From: Pararhizobium gei
Lineage (GTDB): Bacteria; Pseudomonadota; Alphaproteobacteria; Rhizobiales; Rhizobiaceae
Assembly (NCBI RefSeq): GCF_029223885.1
Contig: NZ_CP119409.1
Span: forward strand, 2,754,001-2,818,000
Direction: 5' to 3'
Length of the DNA: 64,000 nt
Position 1 is the first letter of the stretch; the number at the start of each line of letters is the position of its first letter. Below the pieces are notes generated by a model. It had not been told where the DNA came from, ran no database searches, and worked only from the letters and a program-made list of their open reading frames with translations. Shown here piece after piece: positions 42,528-47,427 of the stretch. The position numbers and the translations under genes are program-made.

Positions 42528-42755
42528 AGGGCTTACGCTAAAGCGGAAACAGTCTTGGATTGTAAGATCGAACGACTTCAGGCCGAATTCAGACTGTCTG
42601 CATTTGGGCGGAGGTGCACACCGGCAGCCGGCATTTTGAGTTGCGTGCGCGGATCGGTGTTACGGAATCGTTTGCCGCCCGGAGTCGTGAAGCAAAGCGC
42701 TTCCCACTCGGCAACAGTCAGCTAACGAAACAAATAGGAAGCACCCTTAGCGTGA

Positions 42756-43228
42756 CTACAAGGACATTCTAAAATTCATGTTTGCCGGTAGACGCATCCC
42801 GACCTTTATTGCATTCGGCAGTTGAACGTTGATCTTATCCCCCGGCTTCGCCTGCCGGATCGTCCTCATCGCGCGAACCAGTAAAGCCATGATTAGGACG
42901 GCTCCGTGATCATCCGCTGGATCACACGCCATCGCGCCGAACGTGACACTCGCAGATTTGGATTTTTTGTCTTCCTCCCAATGAAGCCAGCCGACGCCCG
43001 AAGATATTTCCAGTAAGGGATGCCATTCGTCTGCCTTTTCGTCCCGAACTTTAATTGTTGGCCATGACCGGCCGATGCGGCACCCATGCTTGAAAGCATT
43101 GTAGACTGTTTTTTGGCCGAATAACGCCGCTTGCACTGAGATGAACTTGATGACCTCATTGTCTAGCACATACTCATTTCCAATACGGCCCCAGAATTTA
43201 GCTGCGATCCATCTTTCAAAATCAGTAA
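42756..43228 (-). pseudogene. 3' part of a gene split by the IS630 element
   Basis: About 157 codons that read on from the fragment at 44390-44744 once the insertion and one copy of the flanking TAA are removed; the joined frame passes without a stop across ...GISDV-TDFERWIAAKFW... The residues FGQKTVYNAFKHGCRI and DKINVQLPNAIKVGM look like normal protein. I do not recognise the family. On its own it has only a GTG from the IS end as a possible start, so it is probably not expressed correctly. The sequence is somewhat less GC-rich than its neighbours. Confidence 0.7.
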
Positions 43229-44389
43229 TACCAACCGTCACTGATTAGAACCCTTGCGCCCATTTGCGTCGGCCGATTGACATGATCTTCCATGGTCGTT
43301 GCTGGAGGGTTCTCCAAGCGTAGCAGCAGTGGTCGACGATATCCTCGTAGGATTTGAAGACTCGGTTTGAGAGCCAGTTGTCCCTCATGAACTGCCAGAT
43401 GTTTTCGACCGGGTTCAACTCGGGCGATTTGGGCGGCAGTGGCAGGATGGTGATGTTTTCTGGAACGACGAGATTGTTGGACATGTGCCATCCGGCCTGA
43501 TCCATGATGAGGACGGCGTGTGCATGAACGGCGACGTTGCGGGATATCTCGATCAGGTGCTGGTTCATGGCATGGGTGTCGCACCACGGCATGACGAGAG
43601 CGGCGGCCTTGCCGTGCTTGGGACAGATGGCACCGAAGATATAGGCCGATCGGGTTCGCTGGTCGTGCGGCGCGGACGGCCTTGAGCCCCGCTTGGCCCA
43701 ACGACGCGTGATCTTGTTCTTCTGGCCTATCCGGGCTTCGTCCTGGAACCAGATTTCGATTACTTTGCCCTTGGCGGGACCTGCGGCGATTTCTGCCACA
43801 GCGGCGGGGAAGTTTTTTTAAATGCCTCGGCCGCCTCGGCATCCTGCGCATGATGTCTTGGGCGAGCCGAGAGCTTGCGATAGCCCATGGCACGCACTTC
43901 GCGGCCCAGGGTCTCCTCGCTCACCGAGATGCGGAACTCTTCCCAAATCCATTGCGCCAGATCACACAGACGCCAGCGAACGACTCCATCCAGATACGGG
44001 GTCGGTCCGCGCTCTATGGCTTGCGCCAAAGCCGTTCGCTGTTCATCGTTCAGGAGAGAAGGTTTGCCCGGGGCCTTGCCGTTGATAAGGCCGGCGGGAC
44101 CGCGTTCATTGAAGCGCACCACCCAGTCGCGCACGATCTGAACCGTCACACTGCCAAGCCGGGCGGCATCGGCGCGTGAGCCGCCATCATAGATCGATGC
44201 AAGTGCCAGAAGCCGCCGTGCCTGATCGGCATCGCGTGTCTGCCGAGCCAGAAGCCGCAACCTGGCTCCGTCGAAGTCCGATCGCAAAGAAATCGCTGAA
44301 CCCATCACAAACCTCCAGTTTGCATCACAGATTCAGATTCGTTGGCTGCTGGGAATCCCCTTCAGAGTCATGCTCACTGACGGTTGGTA
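43229..44389 (-). mobile_element. IS630-family insertion sequence
   Basis: 1161 bp. The ends are inverted repeats: TACCAACCGTCACTGA at 43229-43244 against the complement of TCAGTGACGGTTGGTA-like bases ending at 44389, 15 of 16 matching. TAA lies directly outside both ends (43226-43228 and 44390-44392), consistent with the TA duplication of this family. It holds one transposase gene in two frames. It interrupts an unknown gene. The intact repeats and single clear target duplication suggest a fairly recent insertion. Confidence 0.9.
43245..44305 (-). CDS. IS630-family transposase, joined by a -1 frameshift
   Basis: Two overlapping frames. The first (44305 to about 43806) is the DNA-binding half: ISLRSDFDGARLRLLARQTRDADQARRLLALASIYDGGSRADAARL (helix-turn-helix), then VSEETLGREVRAMGYRKLSARPRHHAQ. 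The second is the DDE domain: WFQDEARIGQ (Asp), LIMDQAGWH (Asp) and LPPKSPELNPVENIW (Glu). A run of seven A on the coding strand (43813-43819) is where a -1 shift reads FKK into NFPAAVAEIAAGP and makes one protein of about 350 residues. This may be programmed slippage, as in other members of the family, rather than decay, since both halves are otherwise intact. Confidence 0.85.
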
Positions 44390-44744
44390 TAACATCACTA
44401 ATCCCGAGCGCGGTGGGTATCTGCTTAAGAGCTACGGACTGCACGGCATCATTGAGCTTCGTGCCAAAAAATTTCTTAGCAAACCGAGGAACTGGGCCGT
44501 GCGGATGAGCGCCCAAAAGCACGGTGAGCAGCGTTTCGATGGCATGAAAACGTATAAACATGAGCGCTGATGCTCTCATTTCATCCATACCGTCGACCAA
44601 TTCGGCGCCGAAGTCGGTATCCTTGCTCGGCTGCTCGTCCAAGCAATAATGCTGATCGATGTCCCTTGTATACCGAATGCAACTTGCCTGCTTCAGATGG
44701 TAGAGCGGATCAATTTGCGCCCAAAATGCGTCTTCGATATTCAT
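44390..44744 (-). pseudogene. 5' part of a gene split by the IS630 element
   Basis: 118 codons from an ATG with an excellent ribosome-binding site (GGGAGGAGTCC). It begins MNIEDAFWAQIDPLYHLKQ, is Met/His-rich in the middle (DEMRASALMFIRFHAIETLLTVLLGAHPHGP) and runs into the IS end after ALGISDV. Without the IS the whole product would be about 274 residues. No signal or membrane segment is certain, and no family is recognised. A truncated protein ending with residues read from the IS could still be made. Confidence 0.72.
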
Positions 44745-44904
44745 GCCGGACTCCTCCCATAATTACCTTAAGTTTACGGCAACATATCGGAAAATGCACT
44801 CAGCCCTGTATAACGTACCTCGACGAGGTGCTTTGATATGCTGCGCGCACGTTGGGCTCCACCATCGCCGCGTCCAATCCCCATTCTACAATTCCCTCGC
44901 CGCG

Positions 44905-44944
44905 CCCATGGATACGCTGCCAGCTGTGAAAGCGTATCCATGGG
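44905..44944. repeat. 13-bp inverted repeat (hairpin)
   Basis: CCCATGGATACGC (44905-44917) and its exact complement GCGTATCCATGGG (44932-44944) flank a 14-base loop. No T-run follows, so it is not a simple terminator. It lies in the repeat field upstream of the GIY-YIG cassette. Confidence 0.8.
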
Positions 44945-44969
44945 CACGGGGCACGGGGCACGGGGCACG
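44942..44969 (+). repeat. four tandem copies of the heptamer GGGCACG
   Basis: GGGCACG is repeated four times in a row, directly after the hairpin arm (sharing its last GGG) and then runs into GGGGAAAGG. It is non-coding and of a type prone to copy-number change by slippage. Confidence 0.85.
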
Positions 44970-44975
44970 GGGAAA

Positions 44976-45082
44976 GGATGACAACCTTTTGGGATCAGCA
45001 AAGTCGAAAGACGCGCGGAAGCGAGCAGTATCTCATTCAGATCCTGCACCCTCTCTTCCGTCATCCTCGGGCTTGACCCGAG
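44976..45082 (+). repeat. ~107-bp dispersed repeat, copy 1
   Basis: Starts GGATGACAACCTTTTGGGAT and ends in the hairpin CCTCGGGCTTGACCCGAGG. It aligns along most of its length, imperfectly, with the copy at 45424-45530 in the same direction (shared blocks: CCTTTTGGG, TCAGCA, CGGAAGC, TCTCAT, CCGTCATC, GGCTTGACC). Confidence 0.7.
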
Positions 45083-45097
45083 GATCCACGCCCAAGC
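45061..45097 (+). repeat. REP-like 37-bp inverted repeat, left copy
   Basis: A 37-bp sequence identical, in reverse complement, to 45394-45430. It contains a 9-bp-stem hairpin ATCCTCGGG-CTTGA-CCCGAGGAT followed by CCACGCCCAAGC. It ends at 45097, the base next to the stop codon of the GIY-YIG gene. Confidence 0.92.
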
Positions 45098-45382
45098 CTA
45101 CCAAAGTTCATGATATAAATCCCGCCAATCCGGATTCATGGCCTCAATCAATTCAATCTTCCATTGCCGGTACCAGCGCTTCAGCGATTTCTCACGCTGA
45201 ATTGCCGTACCGATCTGCAGATGTTCCTCATACCAGACGAGTTGCGTGCATCCGTATTTGGCAGCAAAGCCTTCTGTCTTACCCTCACGGTGCTCGCAAA
45301 TGCGCCGCTTTATATCGGCGGTTACGCCGATATAAAGCGTTCCTCGTTTGTGGTTGGTGACGATATAGACATAGCCCGCCAT
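45098..45382 (-). CDS. GIY-YIG nuclease-superfamily protein bracketed by REP-like repeats
   Basis: 94 residues, almost nothing but one catalytic domain. The GIY-YIG strands are GYVYIVTNHKRGTLYIGVT, with the catalytic Arg in DIKRRICEHREGKTEGFAAKY and the metal-binding Glu in IQREKSLKRWYRQWKIELIE. It ends NPDWRDLYHELW, as in the UPF0213-like group common in alphaproteobacteria. Perfect 37-bp inverted repeats start 12 bases before the ATG and directly after the stop, making a 370-bp cassette. No ribosome-binding site is obvious, so expression is uncertain. Substrate unknown; a role with the repeats is an inference. Confidence 0.9.
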   Translation of the reverse strand: MAGYVYIVTNHKRGTLYIGVTADIKRRICEHREGKTEGFAAKYGCTQLVWYEEHLQIGTAIQREKSLKRWYRQWKIELIEAMNPDWRDLYHELW

Positions 45383-45393
45383 GATGTGATGAT

Positions 45394-45430
45394 GCTTGGG
45401 CGTGGATCCTCGGGTCAAGCCCGAGGATGA
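45394..45430 (-). repeat. REP-like 37-bp inverted repeat, right copy
   Basis: Exact reverse complement of 45061-45097, with the same 9-bp-stem hairpin. Both copies point inward to the GIY-YIG gene. Its outer end runs into the second ~107-bp repeat copy. Confidence 0.92.
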
Positions 45431-45530
45431 CACCTTTTGGGGTCAGCAGGTTTTAAGACACCCGGAAGCTAAGTCTCTCATACAAACCGCGCATCCCTCC
45501 CCTCCGTCATCATCAGGCTTGACCGGAACA
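45424..45530 (+). repeat. ~107-bp dispersed repeat, copy 2
   Basis: Starts GGATGACACCTTTTGGGGT and ends in a decayed hairpin (CATCAGGCTTGACCGG). Imperfect direct repeat of 44976-45082, so the GIY-YIG cassette lies between two direct copies. Confidence 0.7.
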
Positions 45531-45652
45531 TGATGGCGAGAACAAATTCGCCGCGACAATTCGCAGGGCTAGGAGGCGTAACTCCAGCGTGAGGATGATG
45601 GCTTTGGCCTGCCAAAATTTCATCTCAAAGCTGAATGTTCCGTTGGCCCTAC

Positions 45653-46792
45653 TCACCCCTTGCGCGAAAACAACGACGCCAGTGTCTTCTTCGCCGGTGA
45701 GAAGCCGCCCTTCATGCTTTCGACGATGACCATATGGGTGATTTCGCCGCGCTTGAAGGCTTTGAGGAATTTCGGGTAGTTGGCGAAGGCGACGCAGCCG
45801 TGGCTGTCGCCGGGTTTGCGCAACAGGTAGCTATGGGCAAGCAGGCCCGTGCGGCCAAGCGGTGCCACGCCGTTGGTTGGCGTCAGACGAACGGCCTCGA
45901 CACCGTGGAACAGAGATTCGCGCATGGTCACCTTGTAGGTGCCCGGTGGCGTTGGACCCTTCATCTTCACATGGGTGAAATCCGGATTGTCGCGCATCTT
46001 GCCGATGCCGGAATGGGCTTCGAGCCGCTCGCCGTTCGGCATATGGACCACGCCGGCGGAAATATCGTAATAGGCGACGCCCTTGCGGCCGCGCACGACC
46101 GGGCGAACCGTATCCTCGTCATCCATGACCATGCCCGGCTTGGCATAGGCGAGCTGTTTCAGGGGCTTGCGCTCGGACGGCATGTCCGTGACGCCGGCCA
46201 GGCTGCGCGGCTTTGTCAGCGGCAGCGGTCCGAGATCGGGGAGCGTTCCATTCAACGCTGAAGCCTCGGTCATGACGAGGCCGAACGGCTTTGCGACGCC
46301 CTGCTCTGCCAGGGAAACCTCCTCCACCAGCGCATTGGCAACGACCGGCACCGAGCCGGTGATCACACCCTCACTCCGTGATGCCGCAGCCTGGGCAAGC
46401 GCGGCAACCTGCGTCTTCTCGATGAATTCCGCAGCCGGCCTTGCAGCTGCAACCGCGACTGCAGCCTTGTGCGGCAAACCACGCGCAGCCAGATTGATCC
46501 GCGGCATGACCGTGATCCGGGAGAATTTGGGGAGACGAACGAGGCGTTGCTCCTTTGGCGCCTCGCGCATGATGCCGTTCAGCCCAAGCGATGCGCTGAA
46601 CCGGGCGTCCTTTGCCGGTGGCAATGACGACCCCATGCTGTGGATGACAGCAAAAGCCACCGTGACCCAGACGCCGGCTGCGGCGCCGATGCCGACAAGG
46701 GCGGGCGTTGAAAGAAAGCCCCGTCTGTCAAAAGGACGCCGCGCTTTTGCCTTCGAGGCGACGTGACTGATTTTTCCGACCGCAAACGCCAT
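45653..46792 (-). CDS. DUF2778 (Tlde1-like) L,D-transpeptidase-fold protein
   Basis: About 379 residues; ATG 46843 would add 17. A single membrane anchor lies at about 28-52 (LSTPALVGIGAAAGVWVTVAFAVIHSM), then a ~200-residue Ala/Pro-rich periplasmic stretch. The C-terminal DUF2778 domain begins GVAYYDISAGVVHMPNGERLEAHSGIG and has the catalytic SHGCVAF motif (His and Cys). The domain is that of Tlde1 peptidoglycan-targeting L,D-transpeptidases/carboxypeptidases. There is no type VI secretion gene or immunity gene nearby, so this is probably a housekeeping cell-wall enzyme, as in other rhizobia. Confidence 0.85.
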   Translation of the reverse strand: MAFAVGKISHVASKAKARRPFDRRGFLSTPALVGIGAAAGVWVTVAFAVIHSMGSSLPPAKDARFSASLGLNGIMREAPKEQRLVRLPKFSRITVMPRINLAARGLPHKAAVAVAAARPAAEFIEKTQVAALAQAAASRSEGVITGSVPVVANALVEEVSLAEQGVAKPFGLVMTEASALNGTLPDLGPLPLTKPRSLAGVTDMPSERKPLKQLAYAKPGMVMDDEDTVRPVVRGRKGVAYYDISAGVVHMPNGERLEAHSGIGKMRDNPDFTHVKMKGPTPPGTYKVTMRESLFHGVEAVRLTPTNGVAPLGRTGLLAHSYLLRKPGDSHGCVAFANYPKFLKAFKRGEITHMVIVESMKGGFSPAKKTLASLFSRKG

Positions 46793-47427
46793 GATACCCG
46801 CTACCCGAAACGCATTACCCAATCGCAAGGCAACGATACGCATTGCCGAGGAAGCCGGTCCCATGCCTGATGGGCGGATGGTCTCTCGCCTCGCCGTGCA
46901 TTCCGTCTGATCAGAAGAATGACAAAGTATGGTAACCAATTCCTTTACGTCGGCTCCGGCAATATCGCGGAGAAAAACTGCGAACAGTCGGCGCCATCAG
47001 TGGGACAATGCCAGGGAGCGAAGCCCTTTGCCTGAAACAGGCTCCAATGTCGGGTTCAATGCCGCTCGTTACTGGCTCAGACCCTTTATTTTTGGCGATA
47101 TTAAGGAGAGCGATTCGCGGACACTGTAAAATCCGGCCGTTTCGCACAGATAGGGATCGCAAGCCAAAGCATGTCCGGCACAACTTTAGTATTATACTCA
47201 AATAAATTTCGCGTCGCGCCAACCCCCTCGCTATAGCTAAACCTATGATAGAAAATCATCTTTACGGATGGCCTTGAGAAATGGTGATGGACTGTCTCCT
47301 TCACAGGCGATTTCGTTAAAATCGGATGGAATTTTCACCGAGAAAATTAAACCGGCAGTTTTACCAATTTGCGCGATCCGTGAGGCGCGGACCGACAATC
47401 CAGCACCGTCCGATGGGAATTCCGTCC
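46793..47427. other. long intergenic region, no gene seen
   Basis: 635 bases between divergent genes. Short open frames exist (for example minus-strand 46911-47222), but they lack ribosome-binding sites and family resemblance. The part from about 47060 to 47360 is clearly more AT-rich and should contain the promoters. No terminator or RNA gene was recognised. Confidence 0.45.

Follow-up and report, generated by a model that had tools for sequence, protein, structure and literature searches.

A single-domain GIY-YIG nuclease gene between inverted CGTC-tagged hairpins, a probable minimal REP-nuclease cassette of Pararhizobium

The window, a stretch of 64,000 nucleotides from the Pararhizobium gei genome, contains a gene for a single-domain GIY-YIG nuclease placed between two inverted CGTC-tagged hairpin repeats, and the arrangement of the sequence suggests that this is a minimal REP-nuclease cassette in which the hairpins are probably the cognate substrate of the enzyme. 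The flanked arrangement is general in the nuclease family, each nuclease subfamily pairs with its own repeat type, the solitary repeats form inverted doublets and the cassette is patchily present among related genomes. By analogy, the best reading is a REPtron-like unit in which a GIY-YIG nuclease would take the place of the RAYT transposase.

The two arms listed in Table 1 are perfect inverted repeats over 38 nt with 296 nt between them, and each carries ATCCTCGGG-CTTGA-CCCGAGGAT, a 9-bp stem closed by a 5-nt loop. The CCA tails of both arms are directed toward the gene and the tags outward, CGTC on the left and TGTC on the right. The nuclease open reading frame is intact, with the TAG stop codon (45098-45100) abutting the left arm and the ATG separated from the right arm by 11 nt. 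The initial annotation had described perfect inverted repeats of 37 bp around the gene, with inward-facing hairpins of 9-bp stem and 5-base loop, a stop codon touching one arm and an ATG 12 bases from the other; all of this is borne out apart from the repeat length and the ATG spacing. Among 288 shuffled flank pairs the best inverted repeat scores 13, compared with 38 for the window arms. Degenerate remnants lie outside both arms, giving the order remnant-repeat-nuclease-repeat-remnant, and this alternating array resembles those found at G001:C7 and in G025, two further places within the genus.

Table 1. Positions in the window of the nuclease gene, its flanking repeats and the adjacent remnants
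Feature	Position	Strand	Remarks
Left CGTC-type REP, 38-nt arm	45060..45097	+	Exact match to the reverse complement of the right arm
Parts of the left REP	stem 45063-45071 / 45077-45085; loop 45072-45076; CCA tail 45086-45088; CGTC tag 45059-45062	+	
Single-domain GIY-YIG nuclease gene, 94 aa + stop	45098..45382	-	PF01541 E 4.6e-16
Right CGTC-type REP, 38 nt, TGTC tag variant at 45429-45432	45394..45431	-	Identical to the reverse complement of the left arm
Degenerate REP remnant, forming an outward pair with the right REP	45506..45531	+	Families D1/D2; inverted pair I2 (86%)
Remnant of a REP edge plus sequence downstream of it, 19 nt with 84% likeness to 45424-45442	44975..44993	-	Family D3

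Residues Y6, Y17, R27, H31, E64 and N83 of the nuclease are invariant in 16/16 aligned homologues, and Y6, Y17, R27, E64 and N83 correspond to the catalytic Tyr, Tyr, Arg, Glu and Asn of the GIY-YIG fold. On this sequence basis the protein is assigned to the GIY-YIG nuclease superfamily, with a sound domain. The nearest solved structure in a PDB profile search is 1zg2 (UPF0213, E 6e-8), and the matches are limited to UPF0213, UvrC, SLX1 and I-TevI-type proteins together with two unrelated weak ones. The genome of the window carries one gene of this family. The best 80 of at least 585 matches include carriers in Rhizobium, Mesorhizobium, Caulobacter, Nitratireductor and a Pseudomonas, as well as metagenome-assembled genomes labelled Nitrospinae, Ignavibacteria and Parcubacteria. 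The I-TevI type of GIY-YIG homing endonuclease, as described in the available part of PMC1564403, has the nuclease fold in common with the window protein and a selfish-gene logic is possible for both; unlike that type, the 94-residue protein has no visible second DNA-binding domain, is associated with no intron or intein and is flanked by repeats.

The cassette stands between uvrD and a gene with a Tlde1 domain (45653-46939, PF10908 E 1.7e-26), which is found in 26/26 genus genomes at 69-85% DNA identity excluding the window's own match. The DNA behind uvrD (42528-45059) is hypervariable and differs in nearly every species of the genus. Within it, two overlapping open reading frames with HTH and DDE_3 domains (43245-44308) read like a frameshift-split IS630-type transposase, and a 19-nt inverted repeat of 95% identity with a 12-nt spacer (44900-44949) has a short tandem array of GGGCACGGGGCACGG after it, the two together spanning 44900-44970.

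The repeats belong to a published class. CGTC REPs were defined by Di Nocera et al. in 2013 (PMC3733652, from the part of the article available here) by a CGTC or TGTC/CCTC tag, an AT-starting stem of 8-9 bp, a loop of 4-5 nt, a CCA tail and an occurrence as inverted dimers; they are found mostly in alphaproteobacteria, and the Neisseria repeat dRS3 is their CGTC-1. The window repeats have the CGTC tag on the left and TGTC on the right, an AT-starting 9-bp stem, a 5-nt loop and the CCA tail, and in the genus genomes they are likewise dispersed and often arranged as inverted dimers. In the same part of the article the class is apparently without a dedicated transposase (the association with a TPAse gene is "-" in its Table 1), no transposase gene with CGTC repeats on its flanks was found, extinction of the CGTC REPtrons is proposed and the enzyme that makes or moves the repeats, if any, is left open; the term GIY-YIG is absent from PMC3733652. 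Whereas that account, as far as available, gives the class no dedicated enzyme, a nuclease gene lies regularly between such repeats here, and the published description of CGTC REPs therefore changes while the repeats remain in the class.

The generality of the arrangement was assessed on 154 nuclease loci. Nearly complete genes with flanks on both sides number 145, and exact de-duplication leaves 139; control windows were taken from the same loci shifted 900 nt to either side. Inverted repeats at the threshold score of at least 17 flank the gene at 98/139 loci and occur in 1/263 control windows. The arms contain a hairpin by a short-loop criterion at 69 of these 98 loci, and several others are compound palindromes of greater length. 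A generic GTC-hairpin-CCA-type motif is present on both sides within 300 nt at 101/139 loci compared with 10/263 controls, with the tags outward in 60 of the 101; on at least one side it is present at 132/139 loci, and since 95/263 control windows also have it, a one-sided match is weak evidence. A later set of loci was fetched after the tests were fixed because the motif had been shaped on the first set. Among its 34 loci 3 were already in the first set, and the 31 new ones have inverted repeats at 24/31 compared with 0/62 control windows, the motif on both sides at 20/31 compared with 2/62 and on any side at 26/31 compared with 24/62. A strong inverted pair is missing at 41/139 nuclease loci, which counts against the preferred reading of a nuclease with its cognate flanking hairpins.

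Twenty other GIY-YIG paralogues (L305-L324) were planned as a negative control. The CGTC motif is on both sides of 0/20 of these and on one side of 3/20, while 9/20 have inverted repeats scoring at least 17 that are of another kind, CCTTCGA...CTCAGG. This motif, defined post hoc, is found on at least one side at 14/20 and on both sides at 9/20 of the paralogues and at 0/139 loci of the main family; in six later weak matches it is on one side of 3/6 and both sides of 0/6. The paralogues concerned are of the SYYTG...GWSRAKKEALI type (for example L313, gene 601-837), and by sequence this second GIY-YIG subfamily seems to have a similar partnership, with a palindromic repeat of an unrelated class. 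Proteins of the UPF0213/YhbQ type have a single GIY-YIG domain like the window nuclease, and the paralogues that resemble them most by sequence reading (L308, L318, L322 and L323) are flanked by neither kind of repeat.

Pairing of nuclease and repeat is specific to the subfamily. Four nuclease subfamilies, A, B, C and D, are distinguished in 26 Pararhizobium genomes, and all 21 full-length loci of the genus have the repeat of their own type within 300 nt, compared with 0/63 off-type cells. The correspondence extends to paralogues of different type inside one genome, as in G022 with A, B and D. Type A occupies about four places in the genus, type B about two and types C and D one each, and independent placements are far fewer than 21 because many of the loci are orthologous. 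Across 100 loci the distance between proteins correlates with the distance between repeats, in tests that ignore host phylogeny, with a Mantel rho of 0.318 (highest of 499 permutations, 0.117), and of 0.249 compared with 0.118 for pairs under 70% identity. On the nuclease tree the loop class (4 or 5 nt) switches 7 times compared with a shuffled mean of 23.4, again ignoring host phylogeny, and 0/500 shuffles are as low as 7. Compensatory stem changes number 2 for type A with 0.1 expected and 12 for type B with 3.1 expected, all of the latter at one pair, and are too few to carry weight.

These data bear directly on the simplest alternative, in which the gene is a passenger that merely occupies an intergenic region rich in repeats, or the hairpins serve only as terminators or 5' regulatory elements. 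The hypervariability of the region behind uvrD is consistent with this. So is a recurrent upstream hairpin that ends 18-20 nt ahead of the start codon; it occurs at 23 of the 88 loci whose upstream motif has its tag outward, and the spacing could reflect 5'-end autoregulation of the nuclease. The rarity of inverted pairs in both sets of control windows, the lack of a two-sided CGTC motif at the other GIY-YIG genes and the subfamily-specific pairing all argue against a passenger, making it very unlikely.

In the genome of the window there are four repeat copies at up to three mismatches, two of which are the window arms. A 19-nt palindrome pattern is uninformative in this genome, giving 249 forward and 330 reversed-control matches at up to three mismatches, with the window's own copies missing among the matches listed, and a 29-nt pattern is used instead. 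With the 29-nt pattern repeat A is present in 26/26 genus genomes at 1-41 copies each (333 in total) and the reversed-pattern control gives 0 in each. Nuclease matches, some of them fragments, are found in 16/26 genomes and in none of the other 10. Repeat B is present in 20/26 genomes with a median of 24 copies where nuclease B is present compared with 3.5 where it is absent (p=0.001), whereas for repeat A the excess in genomes with nuclease A falls short of significance (18 compared with 9, p=0.12); neither off-type comparison shows a difference (p=0.38 and 0.52). From these abundances either the repeats persist after the gene is lost or nuclease A and its repeat are loosely linked. Neighboring copies of repeat A within 600 bp (150 copies, 12 genomes) are inverted in 54/54 pairs and direct in none, 29 with the tags outward and 25 with the tags inward. 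Pair spacings of 343-344 and 401-403 bp correspond to nuclease cassettes, and the remaining pairs, spaced 41-111 and mostly 88-154 bp apart, are doublets that enclose no gene and resemble REPINs.

The place between uvrD and the Tlde1 gene holds a cassette in G001, G006, G007, G020, G022 and G025 and a decayed one in G021. Because several species share this site the window copy is taken to be mainly inherited there, a point against a recent jump of the window nuclease. As an empty-site test the uvrD site was dropped, since the DNA behind uvrD is wholly different between species and the junction cannot be read; G001:C7 was dropped as well because a different dispersed repeat, about 230 bp long, forms its right flank. 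This repeat (L024:1969-2202), lying beside one nuclease copy, has at least 10 copies in G001 and many in other genomes of the genus.

A second site was compared in 23 genomes, 22 of which have both flanks (G004, G008 and G023 are not included), and its contents are diverse. The cassette is present in 2/22, G022 and G002, and in these the nuclease genes look damaged by an N terminus in another frame or an in-frame stop. G020 has two copies of one internally deleted nuclease, G016 a REP pair without the nuclease gene and G003 a fused palindrome of two half-repeats. In G000, G006, G007, G009, G011 and G024 the interval is 58-81 bp with no repeat, and in 10/22 genomes it is other sequence of 199-1179 bp, which in G015 includes a REP pair. 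The left edge CCTCCGTC is kept in G025, so this site is read as a deletion scar and not as a never-occupied site. No target-site duplication is seen at the second site. In G001, the second cassette copy differs from the uvrD copy by 2 mismatches in 113 nt, compared with the 84-89% likeness of cassettes from other genomes; the near-identity of the copies fits copying or gene conversion and is not proof of a jump.

The site and abundance data together frame the main alternative, a homing parasite, in which the REP is the cut site of the nuclease, the gene inserts within one REP or between two, and the repeats arose and spread by other means without being moved by the enzyme. The presence of repeats in genomes free of the nuclease is in line with homing, as are the abundance of repeat A, which is not significantly tied to nuclease A, and the occupation of one orthologous site by a REP pair lacking the gene in G016 and by a gene between REPs in G022 and G002. 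In the opposite direction, the abundance of repeat B tracks nuclease B (abundance being compared for two types only), and an own repeat type for each subfamily would require repeated retargeting if repeat and gene evolved separately. On balance a homing parasite is considered doubtful, though with an appreciable chance of being correct.

A closer parallel to the cassette, and the one preferred here, is the REPtron, in which, according to the available parts of PMC3116915 and PMC8266576, a small gene for a RAYT (TnpA-REP) lies between inverted tagged palindromes. Dispersed inverted doublets and enzyme-repeat co-evolution are features of REPtrons and REPINs, in the same parts of these sources, that also occur here, and repeat A is organized in the genus as the REPIN is defined in the available part of PMC3116915, as inverted REP doublets forming a dispersed unit. 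The differences lie in the enzyme, a HUH/Y1 transposase in the REPtron and a GIY-YIG nuclease here, in the tag, GTAG compared with CGTC, and in function, the REPtron enzyme processing a mobile REP according to the available parts of those articles and the nuclease being a candidate for such a role. The initial annotation had proposed this analogy, and it has proved a good one, since further nuclease copies between inverted hairpin repeats, repeats in excess of nuclease genes within the genus and orthologous sites lacking the cassette (at the second site) have all been found. Equal frequency of the repeat in genomes with no nuclease, which it had named as counter-evidence, is seen in part: repeat A occurs in the 10 nuclease-free genomes and shows no significant excess alongside nuclease A, and repeat B opposes it.

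A further alternative is that these are ordinary REPs whose spread is due to a Y1 transposase, a RAYT or another, possibly an ancestral RAYT since lost, with the nuclease incidental. GTAG-tagged REPs are known to be flanked and processed in this way by RAYTs (available parts of PMC3116915 and PMC8266576). The Y1 transposase domain PF01797 is found in only 2/26 genus genomes (G003 and G004), compared with 5/14 control genomes, and is absent from the genome of the window, yet all 24 Y1-free genomes carry repeat A; the part of PMC3733652 available found no transposase gene between CGTC repeats. An origin of the repeats through such a transposase is thus regarded as extremely improbable. The five Y1 transposase matches on G003:C1 (L268, L270, L272, L273 and L274) each have one in-frame TAG, suggesting that a single IS200-like gene, damaged or recoded, is present in several copies.

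In the preferred reading of a nuclease acting on its own flanking repeats, the enzyme would bind and nick the tagged hairpin, which would probably be single-stranded at that moment, at a replication fork or in DNA taken up by the cell. Host repair or recombination between repeat-flanked copies would then convert, copy or delete repeat and gene together. GIY-YIG enzymes cut DNA by hydrolysis and are not known to have a strand-transfer step, and any spread would therefore be homing- or repair-like and not a HUH transposition. Spread of the repeat by the nuclease, which the initial annotation had also raised, is possible, with the balance standing about level, and is unproven.

A 2025 paper in Nature Communications reportedly describes Ssn, nucleases of the GIY-YIG superfamily that carry out site-specific cleavage of cognate single-stranded repeats. 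These proteins are said to have a single GIY-YIG domain, to act on the dispersed repeat NTS in Neisseria and to have many homologues with different specificities. A single GIY-YIG domain and a cognate dispersed repeat are what Ssn, as reported, and the window system would have in common. If this account of Ssn holds, nuclease-repeat pairing is partly known already, the biochemical step becomes plausible and the pairing itself is less new. The remark in the initial annotation that no system of exactly this kind has been described may accordingly be too strong, given Ssn and the publication of the repeat class in 2013. Literature searches covering few subscription papers found no report connecting GIY-YIG proteins with repetitive extragenic palindromic repeats or dRS3, and the only joint appearance of GIY-YIG and RAYT in the parts of the sources seen is a co-listing in a pangenome table.

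A wider proposal, which could equally well turn out right or wrong, is that the enzymes missing from the CGTC REPs are GIY-YIG nucleases. These would constitute a hydrolytic class of REPtron whose gene and repeat spread as one, with co-evolution between every subfamily and the hairpin belonging to it. Given the apparent pairing of the second subfamily with its unrelated repeat, the pairing of GIY-YIG enzymes with palindromes may be general, a principle used twice that lies behind much of the short repeat DNA of bacterial chromosomes. The enzyme question left by the 2013 survey of CGTC REPs now points to a specific small protein family, and the data account for repeat annotations that otherwise look odd in many alphaproteobacteria and, through the identity of dRS3 with CGTC-1, in Neisseria. 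With its four natural nuclease/repeat pairs the genus offers a ready set for mapping the sequence-specific recognition of hairpins, and if it is true that the nucleases spread the repeats, REP-type elements would have arisen with two unrelated enzyme chemistries.
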